Positions 13,480 through 15,416 of a stretch of DNA of 29,254 nt are shown one piece after another. The first letter of the stretch is position 1, and every line of letters begins with the position of its first letter. The translations under genes were made by a program, and so were the position numbers. Source of the DNA: a virus; the IMG/VR virus record IMGVR_UViG_3300036801_000149, positions 1 to 29,254 of that record. The stretch is one strand, 5' to 3'. Below the pieces are notes generated by a model. The model saw only the letters and a list, made by a program, of their open reading frames with translations, was not told the DNA's origin and did not search any database.

Positions 13480-13788
13480 ATGAAGGGCATCGGCACAACC
13501 TGTTCAGCTCCCGCGCAAACCGCGGTGAGCAATTCGGCCTCGAAGGTACTTTCCGCCAATGGTTCGCGTGCGGAGCTGATTGCCGTGAACACCGGCACCG
13601 TTCCCGTGTTTCTAGGCTTCGGCTCGGCCCAGCCCACTGCCACGGCCTATCACGTGGCGCTGGCGCCCTGTTCGAGCGCGAACGACGGCACCGGCGGAAG
13701 CTTCGTCTGCGATTGGTGGGAAGGCGATGTCTATGCGATCGCGCCCGCGGGCGGGGGAACCATCTGCATCGGGGAGCTGAGCGAATGA
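13480..13788 (+). CDS. putative small virion protein
   Basis: A 102-residue protein, ATG 13480. It is rich in Ala, Ser, Thr and Gly with short predicted beta strands (SRAELIAVNTGTVPVFLGFG) and four Cys (residues 8, 64, 76 and 96). No enzymatic motif is visible. Composition suits a structural or decoration protein. Its last four bases overlap the ATG of the secreted beta-helix gene, so the two are probably translated together. Confidence 0.5.
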   Translation: MKGIGTTCSAPAQTAVSNSASKVLSANGSRAELIAVNTGTVPVFLGFGSAQPTATAYHVALAPCSSANDGTGGSFVCDWWEGDVYAIAPAGGGTICIGELSE

Positions 13789-15416
13789 AAAAATACGCGC
13801 TGATCGGCAGTCTCGCGTTTTTGCTCGCAGCCGCCGCCGGGTTGGGGCAAGGCCCTTCGCGGATTCAGAACGGCGGCAAGAGCGGCGGCGCTAACCAATC
13901 CTCTTGGGTGATCTCGCAGAATTGCGGGACGCAAACTAATTGCACGCAGGTCGTAGGCGGCGAAGTCGTAGTCTACACAGCCACCACCAACAGCACGACG
14001 ACGATCACTTGTGCCGCGTGCAACTTCACGTCGGCGGATGTCGGTAAGATCGAATGGGCGACAAACCTAGCCGCGACGGGATTCACTTCGTTCCAAACCT
14101 ATTCGGTAATCTGCCCGCAAGGGACAATCTCAACAGTCAATAGCTCGACCTCGATCACGGTCAGTCAAGCGTGTACCAGTTCTGTCAGCGGCACGGCGAA
14201 TCTCCACTATGGAGTGGACGATACGACGGCCCTGCAAGCAGCGTTCGCCTCGGCGACGGCGAAGTGCGCTTTAGGAAAAGTCGTGGCGATCTATCTGCCG
14301 GATACCGCGATGATTTTACAAAAAGCGGCGTTCGTCAACGCGTCTGCCACCTGCACAGCAGCAAGCGGTTCTGGCAATCCTTTCGGAATTTCGATTATCG
14401 GGCAGGGCCCTACATCGCGCATCGATATATCTCCCAACTTCGATTTGACCACATGTACTGGTCCAGATACCACGGGCAGTGCGTGCTTTGGATGGGGCGC
14501 CAAGGGATCGTCGAGCTCCCCGGCGCAACAAGGTGGCATGTACCTGCGCGATTGGAAACTCACAGGGCCTCCGGTTGGAGGGACCACAGCTTTCTGGGCA
14601 GTCTACATTCCGTCCGATACGATTCTTACGAATTTTTCCTGCTCAGGATGGGGAGTCTCAGACAGCAGTGCTTTCGGTTTTTATATCCAGAGCTTCAACG
14701 CCTCGCTGAATAGCGCAACTTCGGATGGATGCGGGGCAGTGGCGGTCACCGAGCTTCCGGGAAGCTCCGTATACATTTCAGGGAACGGATTTTATGGCGA
14801 CGTGACGGGCAATGCCTACTGGTTCCAGGGAGGTCTGTTAGATAGCGCAGGAAATACCTACGGTGGTACATCGGCAAATTCGAACAACAATTTCATCGCC
14901 TTCAATTCTGGTGCGGCGGTGACCGGAACGATCAGATCAACTAACGACACTTTCTACAATCCGCAGGGAAATACTTCCACCGTTATCAGCATAAGCCAGG
15001 GTACGTGGACCGCTTACTTTAGCCACGACATAATCGGGTACGGAACGCCGTCAGGAACGTCCGTAACTGCCATAGCAGCGAACAACGCCTCGGGAACAAA
15101 CGTAGTACATGTCGATCAATCGATAGTCAACGGAAGCACGTCGCTCAATGTCACCTCGTCTGGGTCGCAGACCTATTTCGACGATTGCGGCAACTCTTAC
15201 GCAGGAAGCAAAACGGTCACTGGAAGGATTCTCGGCCCGTGCGCGTGGAATGCGAAGGTCTACACAGTTTCAACCTTGCCATCAGCCTCAGCAGTCGGTG
15301 CTGGCACTGAACTAGAAGTGAGCGATTCAACCAGCATCGCCCCGGGAACCTGCGTGGGCAGCAGCACGCACTGGGTAAAAGCTATCAGCGACGGAACAAA
15401 TTGGAACTGCCCCTGA
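13785..15416 (+). CDS. predicted secreted right-handed beta-helix (pectate-lyase-like) protein
   Basis: A 543-residue protein from ATG 13785 (ATGA overlap); the longer frame from 13713 only shadows the previous gene. Residues 1-23 (MKKYALIGSLAFLLAAAAGL...) are a textbook Sec signal peptide: basic start, hydrophobic core, small residues at the cut. DDTTALQAAF at 145-154, VVAIYLPD at 166-173 and GISIIGQGPTSRI at 201-213 match the opening coils of the pectate-lyase superfamily beta-helix fold found in phage tailspikes and depolymerases. Long Asn/Ser/Gly-rich coils follow. The end (LPSASAVGAGTELEVSD, then WVKAISDGTNWNC) resembles a common phage fibre terminus. At least ten Cys (47, 53, 76, 79, 110, 130, 161, 190, 224, 234) fit an exported disulfide protein. 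Base composition is visibly less GC-rich than the neighbours, suggesting recent transfer. Confidence 0.75.
   Translation: MKKYALIGSLAFLLAAAAGLGQGPSRIQNGGKSGGANQSSWVISQNCGTQTNCTQVVGGEVVVYTATTNSTTTITCAACNFTSADVGKIEWATNLAATGFTSFQTYSVICPQGTISTVNSSTSITVSQACTSSVSGTANLHYGVDDTTALQAAFASATAKCALGKVVAIYLPDTAMILQKAAFVNASATCTAASGSGNPFGISIIGQGPTSRIDISPNFDLTTCTGPDTTGSACFGWGAKGSSSSPAQQGGMYLRDWKLTGPPVGGTTAFWAVYIPSDTILTNFSCSGWGVSDSSAFGFYIQSFNASLNSATSDGCGAVAVTELPGSSVYISGNGFYGDVTGNAYWFQGGLLDSAGNTYGGTSANSNNNFIAFNSGAAVTGTIRSTNDTFYNPQGNTSTVISISQGTWTAYFSHDIIGYGTPSGTSVTAIAANNASGTNVVHVDQSIVNGSTSLNVTSSGSQTYFDDCGNSYAGSKTVTGRILGPCAWNAKVYTVSTLPSASAVGAGTELEVSDSTSIAPGTCVGSSTHWVKAISDGTNWNCP

Follow-up and report, generated by a model that had tools for sequence, protein, structure and literature searches.

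Tailspikes of phages are taken to be virion parts that are assembled in the cytoplasm, and in the literature that we searched (most subscription journals were outside its scope) we found no description of a phage tailspike that bears a signal peptide. Several described systems share individual properties with the soil phage gene reported here, which encodes a 543-aa protein that combines a spike architecture with a predicted Sec-type signal peptide. The spikes collected in PHROG 32881 (‘pectin lyase activity’) have the same domain order (that is, an FTxADVGK domain followed by a pectate-lyase-type beta-helix with a GTDDT-type start), whereas the protein described here misses the PHROG model, sits in the head module and bears a signal peptide, which is present in only about one in four of these spikes. 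The capsid decoration protein of Arthrobacter phage Bridgette (8eci) resembles residues 55–143 of our protein, but its chain 1 has 126 aa and no beta-helix and was deposited as capsid decoration, whereas our protein is a candidate for docking on a capsid; there is precedent in the literature for decoration proteins that mediate host adhesion. WceF of Pantoea stewartii (PMC7949094) likewise joins a tailspike-type right-handed beta-helix to an export signal, but belongs to a bacterial biofilm operon and uses a Tat signal, in contrast to the phage-borne gene and Sec-type signal described here. The endolysin Lys44 of fOg44 (PMC6116005) is a phage protein on the Sec route of the host, as we propose for our protein, although Lys44 is a lytic enzyme that acts on the cell wall rather than a spike. 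Finally, phages of Porphyromonas gingivalis encode signal peptide proteins with glutamine at position +1, as is the case here, and also bear signal peptides on capsid proteins; in the available part of that report (PMC10367356), and unlike our case, the signal peptide proteins have no assigned function, and neither spike architecture nor passenger swapping is described.

The window (that is, the whole stretch of DNA that was analysed) is a single IMG/VR virus record of 29,254 bases with 34 called genes, and its host can only be guessed to be a member of the Acidobacteriota. Gene order is of the siphovirus type: terminase, portal, head maturation protease, major capsid protein (MCP), small head genes, a 102-aa protein, the 543-aa protein, an 80-aa protein with two transmembrane segments and a gp6-like connector, followed by head closure, neck, major tail protein, tape measure, DUF2460, NlpC-like and J-like tail protein genes (Table 1). 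One of the head genes (12924–13148) encodes a 74-aa protein with the N-terminal domain of ribosomal protein L9 (PF01281, E=1.5e-6). The original prediction had the reading frame exactly right (ATG at 13785, stop at 15414–15416), and its placement of the gene between head genes and connector is borne out by the annotated neighbours. The start codon lies in a four-nucleotide overlap with the end of the 102-aa gene (ATGA, 13785–13788), and an overlap of this kind also joins the 80-aa gene to the connector gene, so that the gene for the 543-aa protein lies within a coupled late operon; no plus-strand promoter-like site was found directly upstream of it, which is weak evidence. Two compositional claims also proved correct: the gene is less GC-rich than its surroundings (GC 55.2%; GC3 0.62 versus 0.70–0.85 elsewhere in the window), and the mature protein is rich in cysteine (16 residues, 3.07% versus 0.90% for the remaining window proteins). 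The 102-aa neighbour has 4 cysteines in 102 residues and no signal peptide, and cysteine content alone is therefore not decisive for export.

Table 1. Features of the locus and its surroundings (positions in the window).
Feature	Position	Strand	Basis or remark
Major capsid protein (context)	11024..12325	+	
102-aa small protein, translationally coupled upstream of the 543-aa protein	13480..13788	+	Homologue before signal peptide genes also in G002
Gene for signal-peptide-bearing beta-helix (tailspike-like) protein, 543 aa	13785..15416	+	ORF call, profile matches
Predicted Sec-type signal peptide, residues 1–21 (MKKYALIGSLAFLLAAAAGLG), Q at +1	13785..13847	+	Sole signal peptide call in window; small-x-small-Q site; kept in sister phage G001
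Constant mature N-terminal linker QGPSRIQNGGKSGG, residues 22–35, last stretch common with G001	13848..13889	+	Alignment with G001
Exchanged segment, without DNA similarity to G001	13890..15486	+	Border alignments
FTSADVGK beta-domain, residues 55–143, related to Arthrobacter phage Bridgette capsid decoration protein 8eci	13947..14213	+	Profile E=3.2e-4; structural alignment; model
Predicted pectate-lyase-type right-handed parallel beta-helix, starts GVDDTTALQAAF, about residues 144–485	14214..15239	+	Profile matches; distal rungs of low confidence
C-terminal region (VYTVSTLPSASA...SDGTNWNCP), fibre-like by eye only	15240..15416	+	No relative found
80-aa protein with two transmembrane segments (holin-like), downstream	15487..15729	+	49% homologue in G029
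gp6-like head-tail connector (context)	15726..16610	+	PF05135 E=1e-10
PHROG 16194 ‘tail protein’, without signal peptide here	16639..17010	+	Signal peptide in relatives G004, G006, G010, G019

Signal peptides were called throughout with a crude, home-made rule (n-, h- and c-regions plus a signal peptidase I site), and by this rule the N-terminus of the protein (MKKYALIGSLAFLLAAAAGLG, continuing as QGPSR) has the make-up of a Sec-exported protein, with two lysines, a hydrophobic core of 13 residues and small residues ahead of Gln22. It is the only one of the 34 window genes to be flagged, and when its own first 45 residues were shuffled, a signal peptide was called in 0.6% of the shuffles; both results agree with the Sec signal peptide that had been proposed. 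A predicted cleavage site is present as well, although cleavage is likely to fall after residue 21 rather than near residue 23 as first suggested.

When used as a single sequence, the protein yielded no relative of its passenger (that is, the part that is exchanged between phages, as described below) in Pfam, PHROGs, the PDB, INPHARED or the viral and genome collections, and a single-sequence AlphaFold model (pLDDT 36) was discarded. A search with the motif FTSADVGK (residues 81–88) retrieved 119 viral stretches, many of which encode FTxADVGK together with the GTDDT-type start of a pectate-lyase-like helix, and residues 57–200 align with these spikes beyond the motif (phmmer E from 8e-13 to 1e-9 within this picked set). 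PHROG 32881 is matched by 32 of the 33 aligned relatives and PF12708 weakly by two; the protein itself matches neither model, and PF12708 matches none of the window proteins. A 32-sequence profile of the family matched solved right-handed beta-helices (3zpp, 8e-10; AlgE4, 1.4e-6; AlgE6, 2.5e-6; iota-carrageenase, 1.1e-3; pectate lyase 5olp, 1.5e-3), and by this profile evidence the passenger after the beta-domain is a predicted right-handed beta-helix. The fold named in the original prediction was thus recovered through the family profile and not from the single sequence, and structure prediction, which had been proposed as a check, bears it out in part: the AlphaFold model guided by the family alignment is confident over residues 63–224 only (pLDDT mostly 70–95), and elsewhere pLDDT is mostly <50, so that the distal half (residues ~225–543) is of low confidence. 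This model aligns with AlgE6, AlgE4 and a Klebsiella phage fibre (VIA-align Z 10, partly over low-confidence residues), and a Foldseek search of the half-confident model against the PDB returned no match at E<=0.001, several of the top rows being phage tailspikes. For residues 55–143, a profile search against solved structures gave 8eci at E=3.2e-4 and a runner-up at 0.046, and a structural aligner separately matched the two (39% identity over 72 residues, Z 6.8). No N-terminal virion-attachment domain was recognised by Pfam or PHROG, although the beta-domain could serve as one. A likeness of the C-terminal region to a known fibre end was also considered, but no significant match was found.

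Searching with the MCP identified a sister phage (IMGVR_UViG_3300036827_000358; contig L002, genome G001) whose MCP is identical to that of the window and whose DNA is 92–99.8% identical except in the terminase, part of the tape measure and the passenger. Identity spans the first 35 codons (>90%), which encode the signal peptide and a linker of 14 residues, stops, and resumes at the start of the 80-aa gene; between these two flanks, both >90% identical, the passengers have zero DNA similarity. The counterpart protein in the sister phage (586 aa) contains a fibre domain that also occurs in a fibre of the same phage without a signal peptide (G001_39; BLASTP 2e-4). Judged from these alignments, the locus is a cassette in which signal peptide and linker are constant and the passenger is replaced, as would be expected if this part follows changes in surface glycans. 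The stretch that holds the J-like tail protein is 99.75% identical between the two phages, and the passenger swap is therefore not part of a change in that tail protein. A pattern search for the constant linker (IQNGGxSGG) found only the sister phage, other matches being random. Elsewhere in the window, the terminase large subunit (6058–8099) is a second exchanged module (~70% identical to the sister phage, with flanks >90%), and about 450 bases inside the tape measure gene (21483–21935) are replaced between flanks that are 94% and 99.8% identical. Two intergenic elements of about 44 bases (10864–10906 and 18301–18344) each match the opposite-strand counterpart of the other in the sister phage and are possibly hairpin terminators; within the window itself, the two were not found to form an inverted repeat pair.

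The low GC3 of the gene could instead point to a secreted host polysaccharide lyase that was acquired by the phage and is expressed from the prophage, in keeping with the existence of secreted bacterial beta-helix enzymes with tailspike folds (for example, WceF, PMC7949094) and with the recombinase- or integrase-like genes seen by eye in the relatives G002 and G019. Host derivation and lysogenic conversion had both been offered as possibilities, and we now consider them quite unlikely: the domains of the protein are of phage type (PHROG 32881 spikes and a decoration protein), the gene is tightly coupled within the late operon with no promoter-like site of its own on the plus strand upstream (again, weak evidence), a close-relative scan of genome contigs (of limited sensitivity) found no relative of it, and the passenger of the sister phage has an equally low GC3 (0.62) yet is fibre-like.

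Parts of the locus recur in other phages. In G002 (IMGVR_UViG_3300036820_000044), which has a different, lambda-type head module, a homologue of the 102-aa protein (68–71% identical) is followed by two signal peptide proteins, one of which is GH43-like (E=1.3e-7, just below the Pfam cut-off). In L239 and L145, a small protein that can be said only to resemble the 102-aa protein, given the weak likeness between them (HHalign probability 24%), likewise precedes two signal peptide proteins, the second being an FTAADVGK helix; no relative of the 102-aa protein was found in genome contigs. A homologue of the 80-aa protein (49%) adjoins a signal-peptide-bearing pectate-lyase-type beta-helix gene in G029, in which a separate FTSADVGK helix without a signal peptide is encoded soon after the J gene. 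The closest relatives by portal (G004, G006, G010 and G019) have no module between head and connector, and in G006 and G019 signal-peptide-bearing proteins are encoded soon after the tail fibre genes. A 471-aa protein of G019 (L112:6473-7888) is a signal-peptide-bearing fusion with a virion-cluster domain, its C-terminal 117 residues being 37% identical to the PHROG 16194 protein.

Across a larger set, the same spike architecture bears a predicted signal peptide in 12 of 47 intact phage ORFs, from unrelated siphoviruses and podoviruses. With a crude predictor, contigs that are non-independent draws and hosts that may differ in cysteine content between the sets, the long genes of the motif-found contigs gave signal peptides in 8 of 26 helix-type spikes versus 4 of 140 others (Fisher p=4e-5), glutamine stood at +1 after a small-x-small site in 13 of the 16 members of the signal peptide set versus 5 of 22 relatives without one (p=7e-4), and median cysteine content was 1.93% in spikes with and 1.15% in spikes without a signal peptide (p=0.018), the spikes with a signal peptide exceeding in 6/6 cases the other proteins of the same contig (p=0.016). 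A glutamine at +1 is known for signal peptidase substrates of Bacteroidetes (the ‘Q rule’). Together, the Q+1 sites and the cysteine enrichment point to signal peptidase I and an oxidising compartment. The signal peptides of the spikes are unlike one another in sequence and were thus either gained independently or have drifted under constraint. Four lines (recurrence, Q+1, cysteine content and retention through passenger exchange) support the view that the predicted signals are real. If the hydrophobic N-terminus were incidental, or if translation started downstream, the protein would be a cytoplasmic tail or head spike, and the signal peptide calls do rest on a rule; we regard this as highly improbable, as the ATGA coupling to the upstream gene involves exactly this ATG, the signal peptide is kept at the DNA level through the passenger exchange, and a dozen other contigs combine this architecture with non-homologous signal peptides.

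Signal-peptide-like N-termini are not confined to spikes. The original prediction took virion-type proteins to be without signal peptides, a premise that is weakened by the neck-region PHROG 16194 protein, which bears one in the four closest relatives by portal (the window protein, like that of the sister phage, begins at the mature end, MARTNIASQIPVGPYP), and by four MCPs of more distant phages with such N-termini ahead of a normal MCP domain (L080:6875-8401, L085:3275-4807, L115:5749-7191 and L118:9038-10567; for example, MKMNRSILAVVFTALAAFAGAAFAQPD), two of which were tested against PHROG 10 and matched it at 1e-41 and 1e-45. Signal-peptide-bearing capsid proteins and Q at +1 of signal peptide proteins have been noted in Porphyromonas phages, for whose MCPs that report suggests removal of the N-terminus by the prohead protease (PMC10367356).

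These observations also feed the alternative that the protein is a virion part, namely a head (or neck) spike, in which the capsid is bound by the FTSADVGK domain, as in Bridgette, the helix points outward and binds host glycans, and the hydrophobic N-terminus is either trimmed in the cytoplasm by an S49-type prohead protease or directs folding in the periplasm, with docking after lysis. The position of the gene between head and connector genes and the match of the beta-domain to a solved decoration protein fit a virion protein equally well as an exported one, the alternative passenger in the sister phage is fibre-like, in G034 (P22-like gene order, by inspection) the signal-peptide-bearing helix gene closes the virion cluster after a fibre gene, at the place expected for a tailspike gene, and MCPs with signal-peptide-like N-termini must function inside the particle. 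On the other hand, no virion anchor is recognisable except the beta-domain, which also occurs in fibres without signal peptides, and the Q+1 sites and cysteine enrichment argue for signal peptidase I and an oxidising compartment. We consider a head or neck spike a real possibility, if a somewhat doubtful one.

The reading that we put forward, with about even confidence for and against, is that the protein is a late, Sec-exported and rapidly swapped glycan-directed spike that acts outside the cytoplasm. Export fits all four lines of evidence on the signal peptide as well as the pairing of spikes with and without a signal peptide in one phage (G029), and it gains from the recurrence of unrelated signal peptides on spikes, the Q+1 sites and the cysteine enrichment; the cell-surface or secreted glycan-directed role that had been named as one possibility is likewise supported as a possibility. 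In this scenario, the protein would be translated late, coupled to the virion genes, and taken over the inner membrane by the Sec signal peptide, which would be cut before Gln22. The mature protein, with an N-terminal phage beta-domain and a right-handed beta-helix, would fold in the periplasm, where its 16 cysteines may form disulfides, and the helix would bind or cleave a glycan of the host envelope or host exopolysaccharide. Unattached to the virion, it could then strip, for example, exopolysaccharide or receptor glycan outside the cytoplasm, either late in infection or when the cell lyses. Export and a role in the virion are compatible if the first comes before attachment to particles at lysis: the protein would be exported by Sec, disulfide-bonded in the periplasm and mounted on the progeny at lysis through its decoration-type domain, and the cassette of fixed signal peptide and exchangeable passenger would generate diversity in such parts in some soil phages, a combination that we consider unlikely.

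In the sampled public phage contigs, roughly one in four spikes of one architecture bears a predicted signal peptide, with signs that the signal is used, and the swap behind the same signal in the sister phage suggests that these phages export spike-like proteins from their host cells and do not only mount them on the particle. The fixed-signal, swapped-passenger cassette in near-identical phages provides a direct handle for testing export. Should these spikes be exported, phages would remodel the surface or the matrix of their host cell at lysis or earlier, and many of the ‘auxiliary pectate lyases’ annotated in soil viruses would be infection tools that leave the cell, and neither metabolic genes nor parts of the virion.
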